The notes under the pieces: model-generated
What the model was told of the DNA's origin: nothing
What the model saw: the letters and a program-made list of their open reading frames with translations, nothing else
The model's database searches: none
Shown: piece by piece, positions 18,436-26,189 of the stretch
How positions within the stretch are numbered: the first letter of the stretch is position 1
Layout: every line of letters starts with the position of its first letter
Translations under genes and position numbers: made by a program
NCBI RefSeq assembly: GCF_034932065.1
Contig: NZ_JAYGHP010000007.1
Coordinates: 1-64,000, forward strand
Reading direction: 5' to 3'
From: Crocosphaera sp. UHCC 0190
GTDB lineage: Bacteria; Cyanobacteriota; Cyanobacteriia; Cyanobacteriales; Microcystaceae
DNA length: 64,000 nt

Positions 18436-18870
18436 ATGAGAGAACTCGAACGCGAAAAAACCATTGAAATTCTCAACACCATCATGGAATATGAATTAGC
18501 TGGTGTTGTGCGCTACACTCATTATTCCTTAATGGTAACAGGCCCCAATCGTATTCCTATTGTACAATTTTTCCAACAACAAGCCACAGAATCCCTGCTT
18601 CATGCTCAACAAGTCGGAGAAATTCTCACAGGATTAGAAGGACATCCTAGCTTAAAAATTGCTCCGATGGAAGAAAGTCATGAGCATAGCTTGCACACAA
18701 TTTTAACCGAAAGTCTTAACCATGAAGGGAAAGCTTTAGAATTGTATAAATTGCTTTTAACAGCAGTACAAGATGCGAGTATCTACATCGAAGAATTTGC
18801 ACGGGGAATGATTGGTCAAGAAGAAGTTCATAACATTGAACTCAAGAAAATGTTACGAGATTATGTATAA
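18436..18870 (+). CDS. Bacterioferritin-like di-iron protein
   Basis: A 144-residue four-helix-bundle protein. Carboxylate and histidine ligands are spaced as in ferritins and bacterioferritins: EYELAGVVRY in helix A, ESLLHAQQ in helix B, ESLNHEGKA in helix C and GQEEVHNIELKK in helix D, giving the E, ExxH, E, ExxH pattern of a di-iron ferroxidase centre. It would oxidise and store iron or protect against iron-driven oxidation in the cytoplasm. It is shorter than classic bacterioferritin (~155-160), and a heme-binding Met is not certain. The FTR1 permease gene starts 31 bp downstream, supporting an iron role. Confidence 0.8.
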   Translation: MRELEREKTIEILNTIMEYELAGVVRYTHYSLMVTGPNRIPIVQFFQQQATESLLHAQQVGEILTGLEGHPSLKIAPMEESHEHSLHTILTESLNHEGKALELYKLLLTAVQDASIYIEEFARGMIGQEEVHNIELKKMLRDYV

Positions 18871-18901
18871 TTTAGAAGTAATCAAGTAAGCCCATAAAAT
18901 C

Positions 18902-19843
18902 ATGGATTTAAGTGCTGCTTTACCTACTTTTGTTGTGACCTTAAGAGAGGGATTTGAAGCCTCATTAGTGGTAGGAATTGTCCTAGCTTGCTTAAAAAAA
19001 GTCCAACAAACCAAACTTAATCGCTGGGTATATCAAGGCATTAGCGGCGGTATTGTTGCTAGTGTTATGGTGGGTTTTTTATTAGGAGGAATTCTCCAAG
19101 GTGTTAACACCTATCAGAGTCCCTATACCCCAGTCATTAAAGAATGTTTAGCCGCATCGTTTGGTTTAGTTGCCATCTTGATGTTAAGTTGGATGTTGAT
19201 TTGGATGACTCAACAAGGCAAGTCTTTAAAAGCAGAAGTAGAACAAGGTATTCAAGCAGCCTTAATCCAAAAAAATGGAGCCGGAAAGGGAATATTTTTG
19301 TTAGTGTTTATCGCGGTTTTAAGAGAAGGATTTGAAACTGTTTTATTTGTTGTTGCTAAATTTCAAGCAGGATGGCAAACTTCCACTATTGGAGCAGTAA
19401 CTGGATTAACAACGGCTGCAATTTTAGGATTTCTCTTATTTCAACTCGGTATTAAAATTAATATTCGTCTCTTTTTTAAAGTGATGGGAATTTTCTTACT
19501 CTTAGTAGTAGGAGGATTAGTGATTGGGGTATTAAAACATCTTAACCTGACAATTATTTTTCTCTCTCAACTTGATCCCAGTTTTGCTACTTGGTGTATT
19601 TTTCCTGGAGATTCTTGTATTTTGGGGCCGTTAATTTGGGACGGGACAGAAATTTTACCAGACAAACAATTTCCAGGTATTATTTTAAAATCCTTGTTTG
19701 GCTATCGACAAAACTTGTATTTAGGACAAATTATTATTTATATTTTATTTTTAATCAGCGTTGGAACCTTATATTTTAGAAGCCTATCCCCATCATCAAC
19801 TCTCAAAACAATTCCTCAGAAATCTGTGGAGAATCTTAATTAA
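18902..19843 (+). CDS. FTR1-family iron permease
   Basis: A 313-residue membrane protein with about seven helices. The two REGFE iron-binding motifs of FTR1/EfeU permeases are present: TLREGFEAS at residues 14-22 and VLREGFETVLF in a later helix. It would carry iron across the plasma membrane. It directly follows the ferritin-like gene, so uptake and storage are probably co-expressed. EfeO/EfeB partners are absent here, as is common in cyanobacteria. A small inverted repeat, GAAGTT/AACTTC (19846-19863), lies just after the stop and might terminate the operon. An acidic-hydrophobic loop near residue 240 is unremarkable. Confidence 0.88.
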   Translation: MDLSAALPTFVVTLREGFEASLVVGIVLACLKKVQQTKLNRWVYQGISGGIVASVMVGFLLGGILQGVNTYQSPYTPVIKECLAASFGLVAILMLSWMLIWMTQQGKSLKAEVEQGIQAALIQKNGAGKGIFLLVFIAVLREGFETVLFVVAKFQAGWQTSTIGAVTGLTTAAILGFLLFQLGIKINIRLFFKVMGIFLLLVVGGLVIGVLKHLNLTIIFLSQLDPSFATWCIFPGDSCILGPLIWDGTEILPDKQFPGIILKSLFGYRQNLYLGQIIIYILFLISVGTLYFRSLSPSSTLKTIPQKSVENLN

Positions 19844-20000: not shown

Positions 20001-21599
20001 ATGAGTTCATGGACTTGTGATGGAGTCCCCAAAGACGGGAAGCAATATCCTGGGGCATCTCCCCACACTCCCCAACAAAACACCGGCCCTGACTGCATTA
20101 TCTGCGGCTTACCCCAAGAAGCAATGCAGCCAGGAAAGACAGGCAATAAACCCGCTAAAACCGTTGTAGCAGGAAGTTCCAGTAACGGGACTCCAGCCTG
20201 GTTAGTGCCTGTTATGATTGTCGTGGCTCTCCTCTTGATAGGGGGTGGTGTCGGTTCATATCTACTGTTAAAACCCAAAAATCAACCCTTAGAATCTATT
20301 TCCTCCCCATCTCCTACCGATACCACCGTTAATCCCACCCAAGGGGAAAATGTCAGTCGGGGAGAACAAATCTTATTAAAACCAACTCCTAATAAAGAAG
20401 CAGGGGCCAAGGCCTTTGAACAAAAAAACTGGCCAGAAGCGATCGCCAGTTATCAAACCGCAGTCAAGGAAGATCCCAATGATCCTGAAGGACTGATGTA
20501 TCTCAATAATTCTAAGGCCCAAAAAGCCGGAAATCCTATCACCATTGCGGTTGCTGTACCTACTACCATTAGTGCAGATTCTGCTGCGGAGATTTTGCGG
20601 GGAGTCGCCAAATATCAAACCGAATATAATCAGTCTTCACCCCCTTCAGGAAGGCTTTTAGAAGTGGCAATTATTGATAGTAGCGATCCCATGAAAGCCC
20701 CCAATATTGCTCAAGAAATTATTAATACAGCCGATATTTTAGGCATTGTTGGTTATGGCATTGATCCAGGTAGTCAAGCCGCTTTAAAACAGTATGAACA
20801 GGCAGGAATCGCCGTATTATCTCCATTAACAAGTAGTTTTAATAAGACTGGGGGAAAGCCAACGCTGAGAACCATTTCTGTGGAACAAAAAGGCGATGAG
20901 TTATTGGTGAATTATTTACAAGCAGTTGGCAAAACCTTGACCCAATATGCTAGTAAACAGCAACCCTCACCAGCCATTGTTCTTTTTTCTAATCCTGATA
21001 GTTCTTATAGTCAACAACTACAACAAGAAATTATTAATAGTTTACCCGCAGTTAAAGGTACTGTAATCGAACAAATTGATATTAATTCTCCTAATTTTAA
21101 CCCTGGTGATGCCATAAGTAGCGCACAACAAAAGGGTGCAAAAATTGCTATTCTAGCCCTCAGTAAAAATCAAGTAACCAAAGCTGTAGAAATTGCCAAG
21201 GCAAATCAAAATAGTGCTTCTCCCTTAATATTAATGGGGGGAGATGAACTTTATAATGCTGATATTTTAGTTAAAGGAGGAGACGCGATCGCAGGGATGG
21301 TATTAGCTGTTCCTTGGAGTTTTAGTCCTAATGATCCCTTTGCCAAAGATGCCATTAATAGTTGGAAAGGTCGAGTAAGTTGGCGCACTGCCACCGCTTA
21401 TGATGCCACAAAAGCCTTGATAGATACAGTTAGTAAAACCCCAGATCGAGCCGCAATTGCTCAAGCATTTAATCAAGGTGTTATCCTAACAGATAGTACC
21501 ACAAATTTTAATCTATTTGATGAAGTTCCCCTAGTAAAAGCAGTTAAAGGAAATCAAGGGCCAAAAGGGTCAAATTATCAATTTGACCCCCTTAAATAG
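20001..21599 (+). CDS. Membrane-tethered sensor: Cys motif, TM, TPR, periplasmic-binding domain
   Basis: A 532-residue protein with an unusual domain string. Residues 1-40 carry C6, C32 and C35 (a CxxC with an isolated Cys), suggesting a small cytoplasmic metal knuckle. Residues 67-90 are a single membrane helix. A TPR-like hairpin (~130-170, AFEQKNWPEAIASYQTAV) follows. Residues ~180-532 form a type-1 periplasmic-binding fold like branched-chain amino-acid receptors: ITIAVAVPTTI, ILGIVGYGIDPGSQAALKQ, GIAVLSPLTSS and LILMGGDELYN. No transporter subunits are nearby, so it likely senses a ligand rather than delivers it. It begins an operon with the vWA and tubulin-like genes. The start ATG has AGGAG 11 nt upstream. 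Confidence 0.75.
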   Translation: MSSWTCDGVPKDGKQYPGASPHTPQQNTGPDCIICGLPQEAMQPGKTGNKPAKTVVAGSSSNGTPAWLVPVMIVVALLLIGGGVGSYLLLKPKNQPLESISSPSPTDTTVNPTQGENVSRGEQILLKPTPNKEAGAKAFEQKNWPEAIASYQTAVKEDPNDPEGLMYLNNSKAQKAGNPITIAVAVPTTISADSAAEILRGVAKYQTEYNQSSPPSGRLLEVAIIDSSDPMKAPNIAQEIINTADILGIVGYGIDPGSQAALKQYEQAGIAVLSPLTSSFNKTGGKPTLRTISVEQKGDELLVNYLQAVGKTLTQYASKQQPSPAIVLFSNPDSSYSQQLQQEIINSLPAVKGTVIEQIDINSPNFNPGDAISSAQQKGAKIAILALSKNQVTKAVEIAKANQNSASPLILMGGDELYNADILVKGGDAIAGMVLAVPWSFSPNDPFAKDAINSWKGRVSWRTATAYDATKALIDTVSKTPDRAAIAQAFNQGVILTDSTTNFNLFDEVPLVKAVKGNQGPKGSNYQFDPLK

Positions 21600-21616
21600 C
21601 CGTTTTCATTTTTTTT

Positions 21617-21676
21617 AGGGGCGGGTTTTTTCAAAATTATATGATTCTCACAAATAGGTTAAATAAATCCGCCCTG
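21617..21676. repeat. 60-bp hairpin repeat inside the tubulin-like operon, copy 1
   Basis: AGGGGCGGGTT (21617-21627) pairs with AAATCCGCCCT near the right end (about 21665-21675), enclosing ~38 AT-rich bases. The same layout recurs at 22709-22769, after the next gene. A half site, AAAACCCACCCTG, follows near 21709-21721. Position directly behind each stop suggests an mRNA processing or attenuating hairpin. Confidence 0.7.
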
Positions 21677-21763
21677 CTTTGTCAATTATCCTATTAGACT
21701 CAGATAAAAACCCACCCTGCCTTGTAACTACTACAATTCAATTAACATTAAGGAGAAACTTCA

Positions 21764-22687
21764 TTGTTAAAGTACCGACGCAAAGTAATAGAAAACCCGC
21801 TATTTTATACCCCTTTAATATTGGTAGGTATCTTTTTAGCACTAGCCTTATTATTTGGGTTACTGCGTTTAGGAAAACCCCCCGTTGCTGTGGCGATCGC
21901 CCTGGATTTAAGTAGTAGCACTTATCAACCCCAACCTTTTAATTCTCCCAATTCTATCATGGATCAAGAGGTTAAAGCCGTTAATGCTTATCTCGAAGAA
22001 AATTCTAAATTAGCTGTGCCGAATAAGGTGCAAATTTTTGGTATTGGAGGCGGAAAAGCCCCAAAATTAACCTCAACAATGGAATCACAACAAGGGGTTG
22101 TTACTGATGAATTGAGTAGAAGGTTAAGCGATCCCAATTTACCCTATCAATTAATTCCTGAACCCTCACAAGATGACCTAGATATTGTTATTAAGGAAAC
22201 GACAGAAGTTTTACGAGAGCAAGCAAATCATTGTCGTGAATTGTTAATAGTAACTGATACAGGTGTCACTTTAACTCAATCTGCTGTTACTCAAGCAACC
22301 GGCCAAAAGATTAAGATTAATTCTCTAGTTTTTGGGGATGGAGATGTCCCTAATTTAAGGTCTGCTGCTCGGCAAACTGGTGGGATTTATCGTGATAATA
22401 TTAGTTTATCTAATACCGGAGGAACCTATCTTGAAGAATTATTTTTGAGAGACTTTTTTAGTCATTTTAATGGTAACTGGAAATGGATCAATTTTTGGTT
22501 AGGATGTGCGGTTATTGCTTTCCTTTGGTTGTTGGTTTTACCTCTAGATCGTTGGGTGTTTCAAGGACTTTTTAAAATGTCTATGGACGCATCAGGTAAA
22601 ATTTCTTTAGGAACGGCATTTATTGGTACAATTATTGTAACAGCATTGATGATAGCAGCAGGTTTACCGTTTATATCCCCTTGTTAA
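21764..22687 (+). CDS. Membrane vWA-domain protein of the tubulin-like operon
   Basis: A 307-residue protein using a TTG start with AAGGAG (21750-21755) eight bases upstream. A membrane helix at residues 16-36 precedes a von Willebrand A domain whose metal-ion (MIDAS) motif DLSSS is intact at residues 48-52. LLIVTDTGVTL supplies the distal Asp. Two more hydrophobic helices close the protein (WLGCAVIAFLWLLVLPL and AFIGTIIVTALMIAAGLPF). The A domain probably lies outside the membrane. vWA domains bind partner proteins through the metal. Its place between the sensor and the tubulin-like GTPase makes it a plausible coupling subunit, which is inference. Confidence 0.78.
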   Translation: MLKYRRKVIENPLFYTPLILVGIFLALALLFGLLRLGKPPVAVAIALDLSSSTYQPQPFNSPNSIMDQEVKAVNAYLEENSKLAVPNKVQIFGIGGGKAPKLTSTMESQQGVVTDELSRRLSDPNLPYQLIPEPSQDDLDIVIKETTEVLREQANHCRELLIVTDTGVTLTQSAVTQATGQKIKINSLVFGDGDVPNLRSAARQTGGIYRDNISLSNTGGTYLEELFLRDFFSHFNGNWKWINFWLGCAVIAFLWLLVLPLDRWVFQGLFKMSMDASGKISLGTAFIGTIIVTALMIAAGLPFISPC

Positions 22688-22708
22688 TAATAAATTACCC
22701 ACAATTTG

Positions 22709-22769
22709 TAGGGGTGGGTTTTGCTCAAATTCTATGCTTCTCTCAAATATGTTACATAAACCCGCCCTG
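22709..22769. repeat. 60-bp hairpin repeat inside the tubulin-like operon, copy 2
   Basis: TAGGGGTGGGTTT (22709-22721) pairs with AAACCCGCCCTG (22758-22769). The inner part resembles copy 1 at 21617 (TCAAATTCTATG and CTCTCAAATA against TCAAAATTATATG and CTCACAAATA). It lies between the vWA and tubulin-like genes. Confidence 0.7.
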
Positions 22770-22814
22770 ACTGATCATTAAAATAGTATCAATAATTGGA
22801 ATAAGGAGGAAAAA

Positions 22815-25800
22815 ATGGCAGCAGTTGAAGAAAAAAGCATGGTTCCCACTATCTTAGTGGGAGTGGGAGGAACCGGAGCAGAAATTTTATCGAGAATTAG
22901 AAGATTAGTAGAAGAAACCTATGGCAGTTTAGAAAAATTTCCGATCCTAAGTTTTTTAGTTGTTGATACAGATAAAGATTATAAAATTAATAACCCCGAA
23001 GCAGGGGGAAGTCCTTTTAAAGATCATGAAAAACATTGGGCCAGTGTTAGTGGTAAACAAGTGAGTTCCATGGTTTCTAGTATGGAACAATATCCTTGGA
23101 TTGATAGTTGGTTTCCCAGGGAATTAGAAAGAAATATTACCTCCTTAGAAGCAGGGGCCGGACAAATTCGCGCTTGTGGAAGATTTGCCTTATTTTGTAA
23201 TTATCATGATATTCGAGATAAGTTTTTAGCCGCGACAAACCGAGTTAAAGGCCGTGAAAATTTCATGTTAAATAACTATGGTATTAAAGTTAGTACCAAT
23301 GCCATTAATGTGTTTATTACCGGGTCACTTTCTGGGGGAACAGGTAGCGGAATGCTCATCGATATGGGCTATTGTGTGCGTAAATGGTTAGAAGGGGAAG
23401 GTAGTCCTTTAATAACCGCAATTGTTCCTATGCCTCAAGCATTTGCAGGAATAAAAGTAGGTGATCGCGTCTTAGCAAATGGCTATGGGGCCATGATGGA
23501 ATTAAGTTACTTTTCTGACTATCGGACAGAATATCATAGTCAATTTAGTAAGAATTTAGCTGATGAAGTTCGCAGCAATCGCGCCCCCTTTGATTTTACT
23601 TATTTAGTGGGAACAAAAAATGGGGAAAGTGACTTTAAACTTGAACAAATTCGAGAAATGATTGCTCAAAATATTTTCTTAGATTTGACCTCAGATTTTT
23701 CACCCCATAAGCGATCTATCCGAGATAATATTAAATCAGCTTGGGCCCAGGCAGATCCTGGCGGTAGAGGTTATCCCAAGAATTTCATGAGTTTTGGTCT
23801 ATCTACCATAGAAATCCCAATTTCTCAGATTCGCAGTTCTTTATGTTATCGACTTGCTAAAGATTTAGTTAATTGGTGGTTAAATGAAAATGCAAAACTA
23901 CCAGCAGATTCGATGGAATTAATCAAAAACGATATTCTTAAAAGGATGCGTTTAACTGATGTTGAATTATTAACGGACTTAGGGGCAGCACAAGATAAAT
24001 CTTATTTAGAAGAAGTGTCCCAATGGATTAATAAACTGCGGCAAACTATTAATCAAGAAAATTATTTACAATGTACAGCCAAAGGAATTAATTTTTTGGG
24101 CAAAGAACAGGGTAAAATTAAAGATTTAGATCAATTTATTAGGCAAGAAGTTAATACTTTTCGCCAAGATCATTTTCGAGAATTAAGTCCTGATGAACGA
24201 TTACATGGGGACTATTTTCAACGTATTTATGATAACCGCGATCGCATCATTACTCAAGGAAGAAGTAGCCTAGAAACGGAACTTTATCGAATTTTAGAAG
24301 ATCGTAATTATGGGACTAAATTTGCCCAGACATTTATCACAATTGTGCGACAAATCTTTGATGATATTAGACAAAGATTTAGTCAGCAACAAGAACAAAT
24401 TTGGGGACTAAGAGAAACCGAAAGACAGAAACAATATGAACAAGCTTTAGAGGAATTCACCCAAATCAAATCACGGTATGGCATTACAAAACAGGATAGA
24501 ATGGAAGTCTGTTGTGATAATATTTTAACTAATCTTGAAGGAAGTTTAGTGGCAACAATTCAACGAAAAACCCGCGCTGCTTCCTTAATTGTCATTGATA
24601 GATTAAAAGAAGAATTAGACAAATTAGAACGACGTTTAAACCGTTTTCAACAGCGTTTAATACAGACAAGAGATCAGTTTGCACAAGAAGCAGATCATCA
24701 AGCAGAAAGTGCTGACGCTTTAAGCATTAATGGTATTAAACTATATGAACGGGATAAACTTAATGAACTCTATCAAGACTTAATTGAACAATTAGGGGCC
24801 GATACTCAAGGAAGCAAAAGTCGGTTTGAGATCGGGTTAGATAGAGTATGTAGTACCCTCTCAGAAGATATTCTTAAAGAAGCGAGTCCTTTCTGGAAGA
24901 AAAACCGTCGCGCTGATGAATATATGCGCTTATTTGATATTACCCAAATTCCCGATGTTCAAGAAGATGACTTAGGAGATATTATCTATAAGTATAGTAA
25001 AATTATCGTTGTGGAGAGAACCCCGAAAAATAGTCATCTTTATACCGAGATGGCCGCTTGCGATCGCCTCTTTAAACTGTTCAATGATGAGACAGAAATT
25101 GTCAATAATATTCGCATTGCTTACAATAAATCTAAACCATTAATCTTGATGGATAAAGCAGTTTTATCTGGAAAAGATGCCGGATTTACTCCCGCTACCA
25201 ATATTAATGTTGCCCTTTTAGGAGGAAGGAATACTGCCGATCCTGCGGCCCAAAAACTTCTTCCCCTGCTACAACAATTTAATGATATTGGAGAAAACGC
25301 CATTAAACCTTTAGGCGATCCAGAACGTCATCGTATCGTCTTTGTACAAGAAACAGGGGGATTTTCTTTACGATGTATTGATGGTATGAAAGAATTAAGA
25401 CAATCCTATCAAGACTGGAAAGGGGACAGTATTGAAGCAAAACGCGCCCAATTACGAGGAGAACCCAGGGACTTACCTATTCCTGTACACATTCAAAAAG
25501 AACCCCCATTTTGGGATATCTTTCCCGAAGATCCTAAAATCTTTCAATTAGTGATTCAAGCAAGAGCATTAAACGTATTATATCTATCAGAAAATCAGGC
25601 AACTAGAGAAAATACCATCCGTTATACTCGTCCAACTAATATAGGTTCACAAAACGTTGATATTGCCTCAAGTTGGGAAGAAGCATCACAAATCTTAGAA
25701 GTGCGGGCCTGTCGTCCTGATCAAGAAGAAATTAAACGACAAATTACCCAAAAATTGACCGCAGCAGAAACCCCCCAACAAAAACAACAACTTTATCAAC

Positions 25801-26189
25801 AATTCACAACTTATCTAGAAAATCGCGCCCAAGAATTACAAAAACAAGGGGGGAAAGATAGCCCAGAATATAAACGAGAAGCTGAAATTATTAAGCAAGT
25901 TATTAATGATTATCAACTCTATGCAGCCACAGATATTTATCATAATGAGAAACCATTACAAACCACTTCTACTCAACAAAATACAGTAGAAAATCAAGTA
26001 GTTGAAACAGCACCCCAAGCCCCAACTCAAAGAAAATGGTATCTTTATAAAGATAATCAACAAACTGGGCCTTTTTCCGCCGAACAACTCTTAAATCAGG
26101 GCATAACCCCTCAAACTTATGTTTGGTGTGCGGGAATGGAGGGTTGGAAAAGCGCGTCAGATATCTCAGAGTTAAGCCATCTTTTCTAA
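22815..26189 (+). CDS. Tubulin-like GTPase with C-terminal GYF-like domain
   Basis: A 1124-residue cytoplasmic protein. The N-terminus (TILVGVGGTGAEILSRI, residues ~12-28) and the GSLSGGTGSGMLID signature (GGTGSG at 174-179) are those of the bacterial Tubulin_2 family, which is distantly related to FtsZ/tubulin. A catalytic-loop-type region and long charged coiled-coil segments (about 400-480 and 560-660) fill the middle. The last 52 residues (WYLYKDNQQTGPFSAEQL to GWKSASDISEL) form a GYF_2-type domain, which binds proline-rich peptides or membrane proteins. AAGGAGG lies just upstream of the ATG. It is the third gene of an operon with the membrane sensor and vWA genes. The function of such units is not established. 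Confidence 0.8.
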   Translation: MAAVEEKSMVPTILVGVGGTGAEILSRIRRLVEETYGSLEKFPILSFLVVDTDKDYKINNPEAGGSPFKDHEKHWASVSGKQVSSMVSSMEQYPWIDSWFPRELERNITSLEAGAGQIRACGRFALFCNYHDIRDKFLAATNRVKGRENFMLNNYGIKVSTNAINVFITGSLSGGTGSGMLIDMGYCVRKWLEGEGSPLITAIVPMPQAFAGIKVGDRVLANGYGAMMELSYFSDYRTEYHSQFSKNLADEVRSNRAPFDFTYLVGTKNGESDFKLEQIREMIAQNIFLDLTSDFSPHKRSIRDNIKSAWAQADPGGRGYPKNFMSFGLSTIEIPISQIRSSLCYRLAKDLVNWWLNENAKLPADSMELIKNDILKRMRLTDVELLTDLGAAQDKSYLEEVSQWINKLRQTINQENYLQCTAKGINFLGKEQGKIKDLDQFIRQEVNTFRQDHFRELSPDERLHGDYFQRIYDNRDRIITQGRSSLETELYRILEDRNYGTKFAQTFITIVRQIFDDIRQRFSQQQEQIWGLRETERQKQYEQALEEFTQIKSRYGITKQDRMEVCCDNILTNLEGSLVATIQRKTRAASLIVIDRLKEELDKLERRLNRFQQRLIQTRDQFAQEADHQAESADALSINGIKLYERDKLNELYQDLIEQLGADTQGSKSRFEIGLDRVCSTLSEDILKEASPFWKKNRRADEYMRLFDITQIPDVQEDDLGDIIYKYSKIIVVERTPKNSHLYTEMAACDRLFKLFNDETEIVNNIRIAYNKSKPLILMDKAVLSGKDAGFTPATNINVALLGGRNTADPAAQKLLPLLQQFNDIGENAIKPLGDPERHRIVFVQETGGFSLRCIDGMKELRQSYQDWKGDSIEAKRAQLRGEPRDLPIPVHIQKEPPFWDIFPEDPKIFQLVIQARALNVLYLSENQATRENTIRYTRPTNIGSQNVDIASSWEEASQILEVRACRPDQEEIKRQITQKLTAAETPQQKQQLYQQFTTYLENRAQELQKQGGKDSPEYKREAEIIKQVINDYQLYAATDIYHNEKPLQTTSTQQNTVENQVVETAPQAPTQRKWYLYKDNQQTGPFSAEQLLNQGITPQTYVWCAGMEGWKSASDISELSHLF

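Follow-up and report, generated by a model that had tools for sequence, protein, structure and literature searches.

Gene organisation of the locus

The window considered here is a stretch of 64,000 nucleotides from Crocosphaera sp. UHCC 0190 (contig NZ_JAYGHP010000007.1, positions 1-64,000), and this report is centred on three genes at 20001-26189, which encode a membrane-tethered sensor, a membrane protein of the vWA type and a tubulin-like protein of the FtsZl1 (Tubulin_2) family. The comparison of these genes across the phylum points to the sensor, which is recognised by an N-terminal cysteine motif (the knuckle), as a constant partner of one clade of FtsZl1, and the pair may represent a receptor that acts on a tubulin.

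20001..21599, + strand: sensor gene, open reading frame (ORF) of 532 residues with a knuckle, one transmembrane helix, a TPR-like stretch and a type-1 periplasmic-binding domain
21764..22687, + strand: vWA membrane protein gene, ORF of 307 residues with a TTG start at 21764 and three predicted transmembrane helices
22815..26189, + strand: FtsZl1/Tubulin_2 gene, ORF of 1124 residues, PF13809 at E 6.8e-113

The first-pass annotation of this DNA had described three genes on one strand with good ribosome sites; the ORF list agrees, and an AGGAG-type sequence, judged by eye, stands upstream of every start. The intergenic gaps measure 164 nt (sensor to vWA) and 127 nt (vWA to tubulin), and both contain inverted repeats of the GGGYGGGTTT...AAACCCGCCC-type (window 21600-21726 and ~22705-22775), the repeat of the first gap having eight other partial copies elsewhere in the genome. 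Because of the size of the gaps and the repeat in the first of them, co-transcription of the trio is uncertain.

Operons combining FtsZl1 and vWA genes, those of cyanobacteria included, were described in 2010 by Makarova and Koonin (PMC2875224), and their FtsZ-like family corresponds to PF13809 according to PMC9871819. In the 2010 paper membrane remodelling was proposed for FtsZl1 and membrane-linked partners were predicted; T6-H7 was not confidently identified there and the C-terminal domain was considered unlike that of FtsZ. In the accompanying review exchange a referee pointed out a binding-protein neighbour in Arthrospira and asked how a cytoplasmic FtsZl1 could act with periplasmic partners, to which the authors replied that such neighbours were confined to one or a few related organisms (PMC2875224). 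No function of FtsZl1 is reported in the titles and abstracts of the literature searched.

The sensor: a constant knuckle and exchangeable outer domains

20010..20114, + strand: putative zinc-knuckle motif W4 C6 G8 H22 N27 C32 C35, the constant part, predicted cytoplasmic
20196..20267, + strand: sensor transmembrane helix, ~residues 66-89 (hydropathy 66-84; model helix 68-89)
20535..21596, + strand: leucine-binding-protein-like domain, the exchangeable outer module

The sensor had been described as a protein with a Cys knuckle, a transmembrane tether and a type-1 periplasmic-binding domain, and this description is borne out: Peripla_BP_6 is matched at residues 179-492 (E 1.7e-17), the knuckle is nearly invariant and hydropathy gives a single transmembrane helix (66-84) behind a hydrophilic N-terminus of ~65 residues. 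The type-1 binding-protein fold is supported both by Pfam and by comparison of the predicted model, in which Foldseek and VIA find the outer domain closest to leucine-type binding proteins. As for the TPR claimed in the same description, one TPR-like stretch is seen but falls under the curated Pfam cut-off. On Nostoc and Gloeothece plasmids (hits H2 and H3), leucine-type binding domains related to that of the sensor are also annotated as part of caspase-family proteins or next to them.

The knuckle, to which the first-pass annotation had assigned no role, is the most conserved part of the sensor. Residues W4, C6, G8, H22, N27 and C32 are found in 43/43 aligned sensors and C35 in 42/43, and the fixed pattern is present in 113 of 120 homologues among the matches listed, the seven misses being six proteins with a truncated start and one (P0182) with M instead of N. 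Out of 31 strong upstream sensors, the knuckle hidden Markov model (HMM) failed on four (L038, L062, L064 and L069), in which the same residues are seen by eye with another spacing, and the knuckle of L144 lacks the N. A diverged knuckle protein (L154, genome G050) scores 342 bits to the sensor HMM and shows no Pfam domain at E<=0.01. Three 45-residue knuckle peptides matched no Pfam family at E<=10, in searches whose HMMER filters drop most weak matches; the best PDB hit of the knuckle had an E of 0.5, and no curated model of known zinc-finger families matched it, including that of the RanBP2-like zinc finger, which had been considered as a candidate.

The same knuckle and transmembrane helix are followed by different domains in other sensors. 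Five weak-scoring upstream sensors carry a PstS-like PBP_like_2 domain, L061 a Phosphonate-bd domain, L108 Phosphonate-bd and SNase domains, and the two knuckle proteins of L133 (G179) have outer parts without a Pfam match. Across 40 labelled rows of the tubulin tree, a quick tree with 19 of its 65 forks open, the type of outer domain switches at least seven times (six without the long branch L061). As far as sequences can tell, therefore, the inside of these proteins is constant and the outside is swapped, a receptor-like pattern, and the family may consist of receptors. The knuckle is assigned to the cytoplasm because exported binding families sit on the C-terminal side of the helix; there it would bind zinc and touch FtsZl1. 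The outer domain presumably binds a small molecule, which in this species would be amino-acid-like to judge from the fold.

Co-occurrence of the knuckle and clade A tubulins

The distribution of both proteins was analysed in 386 genomes of the phylum that are at least 90% complete. The knuckle is present in 25 of them and a Tubulin_2 match in 74 (69 above the curated cut-off). The Tubulin_2 places retained were those with E < 1e-50, plus the window and L003; weaker places and G179:C1:2879260 were left out, G179 being represented by its other Tubulin_2 copies. Each place was assigned by its score to an HMM of the relatives of the window's tubulin, clade A comprising those above 1300, a border chosen after the scores had been seen. 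So defined, clade A covers 24 genomes of 14 genera, all of them among the 25 knuckle genomes: the knuckle occurs in 24/24 clade A genomes versus 1/362 of the remaining ones. The link that had been suggested between a sensor with an exported-type binding domain and the tubulin is thus supported, and the lack of conserved co-occurrence that had been named as its refutation is not what the genomes show. Several families show joint presence and also joint absence of the two genes.

This association does not depend on proximity. Eleven of the 24 clade A genomes have the sensor and tubulin genes within ~9 kb of each other. The other 13, made up of G103, seven genomes from a Microcystis-like genus and five from a Thermosynechococcus-like family, have them at distant places or on separate contigs, five of these having both genes on one contig at a distance of at least 280 kb. 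In G083 all three genes of the trio are separated from one another. On the evidence of gene content, the knuckle accompanies the clade A tubulin in every sampled genome that holds one, even with the genes far apart.

Conserved co-occurrence of the partners, for which a neighbourhood search had been proposed, is also seen in named genomes, which partly overlap with the sample above. From 70 loci, ten with less than 3.5 kb upstream of the tubulin gene were dropped. In 31 of the remaining 60 the tubulin gene is preceded, on the same strand, by a vWA gene and a strong sensor; 30 of those 31 show the order sensor, vWA, tubulin, two of the 30 with the sensor in two ORFs. A PstS-like knuckle protein stands upstream in a further 5/60, and 24/60 have no upstream sensor, five of them with a vWA gene; L015 and L061, which are among these 24, have a knuckle protein downstream. 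In Crocosphaera watsonii WH 8501 (L010) sensor and tubulin are split over several ORFs and look broken in that record. On the Cylindrospermopsis curvispora plasmid p-r.curvispora1 (L189, NZ_CP060823.1), typed as non-mobilizable, the tubulin gene is adjacent to that of a knuckle protein carrying Phosphonate-bd and SNase domains, and a gene of the AbiEii toxin type is located in the same stretch.

The FtsZl1 protein

23334..23351, + strand: GTP loop T4, GGTGSG, residues 174-179, invariant in 52 rows
23883..25184, + strand: helical stalk inserted in the tubulin fold, ~residues 357-790, with putative, approximate borders (model helices 466-495, 500-552 and 559-635)
25194..25466, + strand: second part of the tubulin fold, ~residues 794-884
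26037..26174, + strand: GYF_2 tip (Pfam residues 1075-1120, E 6.5e-17), replaced in relatives by a zinc ribbon or SHOCT

The 1124-residue protein had been described as a Tubulin_2 protein with GGTGSG at 174-179 and a GYF-like end, in agreement with the PF13809 match at residues 13-352 and with that of GYF_2. Its predicted model (predicted local distance difference test, pLDDT, 83.7) consists of an FtsZ-like domain, a series of long helices (466-635) and, past 790, a region of mixed structure. Alignments of CetZ and tubulin to this model span from residue 9-11 to residue 869-905, and the two-domain tubulin fold is present in it. The T3 stretch is invariant in the alignment of 52 rows, as are D290 and D304, with D294 nearly so; these are candidates for the catalytic acidic residue of the T7 loop, whose position is assigned by order only. 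The FtsZl1 profile matched no PDB sequence at E<=0.1. FtsZl1 would bind GTP and may assemble.

The C-terminal tip is variable: among 66 rows of the clade A tree there are 44 zinc ribbons, 10 SHOCT, 7 GYF and 5 others, and its type switches at least five times on the tubulin tree even with 'other' left out. The GYF domain had been proposed to bind a Pro-rich stretch of the sensor (residues 97-112). This contact was rejected, since in the favoured topology that stretch is on the binding-domain side of the membrane, the GYF protein has no apparent transmembrane helix and GYF is found on just 7/66 clade A rows. There is no PPG motif in the sensor or in the vWA protein, and PP occurs only at 214 and 39, respectively.

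The vWA protein

21905..21922, + strand: MIDAS-type motif D48-L-S-S-S-T53 (D48, S50, S52 and T53 invariant in 22 rows)
22547..22564, + strand: loop D262-R-W-V-F-Q267 between the second and third transmembrane helices, predicted cytoplasmic (D262 and Q267 invariant in 22 rows)

The proposal of a membrane vWA protein with an intact DxSxS site holds. Hydropathy gives three transmembrane helices (18-36, 241-259 and 286-304), and D-x-S-x-S-T is found in 118/120 relatives among the matches listed. The site DxSxS...T...D is complete, D48, S50, S52, T53 and D165 being invariant (22 rows), and metal binding is predicted. Neither the protein of the window nor its closest relatives among the matches listed match a Pfam family; many relatives (37-48% identity) carry PF13519, PF13768 or PF00092. 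C157, in the vWA domain, and C307, at the C-terminal end, are invariant in the 22 aligned rows, and all 120 relatives among the matches listed have a Cys in their last three residues; the two invariant cysteines may therefore form a disulfide outside.

A whole-genome search of the 25 knuckle genomes found a vWA-family match in 16, all of clade A and 14 of them nearly full length; in the other two, G199 and G290, only the end of the protein matches, and no match was obtained in the seven Microcystis-like genomes, G225 and G050. In the lineage of G199 and G290 (L126, the same record as L028; L129; L027) the first helix is joined to the second helix, loop and third helix, with the vWA domain and the C-terminal Cys gone; what these versions keep is a set of three hydrophobic helices with the LPLDR-x-x-FQG loop. 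The first-pass annotation had envisaged that the signal passes through the vWA protein. Since the vWA domain is absent or reduced where the sensor-tubulin pair persists (no match in 8/24 clade A genomes and helices only in two more), a route from sensor through vWA domain to tubulin is unlikely to be general, and an accessory role as membrane partner is the most likely one for this protein.

Sister clade B and neighbouring genes

The same genome has a second FtsZl1 locus (L003:3668-10334) with vWA-like, Tubulin_2, ZorA-like and ZorB-like genes, the last two matched by PADLOC at E 5.4e-14 and 1.6e-8. It belongs to a clade B of 34 loci, counted with tubulin ORFs over 850 residues (those of 850 or less being excluded). 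ZorA- and ZorB-like genes are both present in 31/34 of these loci, a vWA-like gene in 33/34 and the knuckle in 0/34. No match to ZorA or ZorB was found in the clade A loci fetched; ZorC, ZorD and ZorE were not looked for. The membrane partners of the tubulin family would therefore be of two kinds, clade A having a receptor and clade B a Mot/Zor-like pair. Proteins of the ZorB-like type are perhaps what the 2010 paper listed as 'OmpA-like' partners.

In the window, ferritin-like and FTR1 genes (18436-19843) directly precede the sensor, as they do in a Microcystis-like genome (L153:6566-7973) whose tubulin gene is elsewhere. An iron link of the trio was rejected because they stand beside the sensor in just 6/58 sensor-bearing loci. 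Judged by Pfam for ferritin, FTR1 and CN_hydrolase and by eye for the others, the near neighbours of the trio look like housekeeping genes.

Interpretation

The reading that we favour, tentatively and at slightly less than an even chance, is that the sensor is a membrane receptor paired with the tubulin-like protein, so that small molecules outside control FtsZl1 through the knuckle. A molecule outside the inner membrane would be read by the binding domain, the signal would be relayed across the membrane to FtsZl1 through the constant, predicted cytoplasmic knuckle, and the GTPase or polymer state of FtsZl1 would shift in response. The vWA protein would assist as accessory membrane partner, its membrane bundle and LPLDR-x-x-FQG loop being the part that persists. 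A more specific version is rather unlikely: here a single family of transmembrane receptors, recognised by a new cytoplasmic knuckle W-x-C-x-G-H-N-C-x-x-C and with ligand domains varying between species, would directly switch a stalk-interrupted tubulin, the sister branch coupling its tubulin to an ion motor of the MotAB/Zor type. We know of no bacterial tubulin that couples outside chemistry via an exchangeable receptor; if the receptor reading is true, bacteria link the two in this way. A membrane-spanning receptor with a constant knuckle on the cytoplasmic side would also answer the question raised by the referee in 2010.

Several observations weigh against it, beginning with the late choice of the clade border and the open forks of the quick tree. 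The Fisher value of the association (2.7e-37) is overstated because the sampled genomes are related. Just under the border are scores of 998 (second copy in G199) and ~600 in G058, G079 and G233; these three genomes have no knuckle, and counting them as clade A gives 24/27. The 25th knuckle genome, G050, has a diverged knuckle protein and only a ZorAB-type tubulin, and in Arthrospira and Trichodesmium (L062, L064 and L069) the tubulins resembling clade A score lower and go with an altered knuckle spacing. Charges flanking the transmembrane helix are indecisive for topology (more on the N-side in 45 sensors, more on the C-side in 27 and ties in 41; n=113). Profile comparison with cyanobacterial FtsZ was weak at the T4 region and missed the second domain, with an FtsZ set that was too uniform (effective number of sequences, Neff, 3).

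Among the other explanations, the published one of membrane remodelling (PMC2875224), in which FtsZl1 filaments act on the inner membrane by bending or scaffolding it, with sensor and vWA protein serving mainly as anchors, seems unlikely, though it is the most credible of them. The model predicts a complete tubulin fold that carries a long stalk of helices, which would fit a filament, and the role of the knuckle might be that of a passive tether; anchors, however, do not need several kinds of swapped binding-type outer domains. By analogy with the sister clade, where ZorA- and ZorB-like genes accompany the tubulin in 31/34 loci, the outer domains and the vWA protein could instead watch the envelope for stress or phage conflict, with FtsZl1 as effector, and the AbiEii-type toxin gene near the Cylindrospermopsis plasmid copy would suit such a role. 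We regard this as distinctly improbable, and a defence annotation was rejected: PADLOC matches none of the three window proteins, their near neighbours look like housekeeping genes and no constant nuclease or toxin partner is seen, the SNase domain being on one sensor.

It is very improbable that the sensor is the substrate-binding protein of an ABC (ATP-binding cassette) importer which FtsZl1 places or gates, a view close to the referee's suggestion. The resemblance of the outer domain to leucine-type binding proteins agrees with it, but the sensor is tethered behind a hydrophilic N-terminus, a single knuckle is common to different binding folds, and inspection by eye of the ORFs between 14 and 33 kb revealed no ABC permease or ATPase, an unlinked one being possible. 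Slightly less probable again is that an old linked block merely travels together without joint function. The local synteny with ferritin and FTR1 would be explained in this way; against it, 13/24 genomes retain both genes at separate places, and within several families the two are present or absent together.

Comparison with known systems

The sensor that we read as a receptor differs from leucine-type substrate-binding proteins and from AmiC in being membrane-tethered behind an N-terminal knuckle, and no transporter was noticed beside it in the window. ABC substrate-binding proteins are free or lipid-anchored and have an N-terminal signal peptide, whereas the sensor starts with the hydrophilic knuckle and has its only hydropathy-predicted transmembrane helix at 66-84. 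Compared with CetZ, FtsZ and tubulin, the FtsZl1 of the trio has a helical insertion of ~430 residues in its fold and an additional C-terminal adaptor tip, and its assembly is putative. The likeness to Zorya resides in sister clade B, with ZorA/ZorB-like and vWA genes beside FtsZl1, unlike the clade A loci fetched. In GltJ, from the gliding machinery of Myxococcus, a zinc ribbon and GYF are combined in one membrane-linked protein; its NCBIfam model touches the C-terminus of FtsZl1 (E 3.9e-6, 26.2 bits against a cut-off of 450), a likeness confined to the tip.

The closest known system is that of the FtsZl1/vWA operons of Makarova and Koonin (2010), with the same tubulin family, the same kind of vWA neighbour and cyanobacterial members. 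Binding-protein neighbours were set aside in that work, and neither T6-H7 nor an FtsZ-like C-terminus was recognised there with confidence; what appears to be new here, from sequence comparison and a predicted model, is the sensor as a constant, knuckle-defined partner of one FtsZl1 clade, together with a tubulin fold that is interrupted but probably complete.
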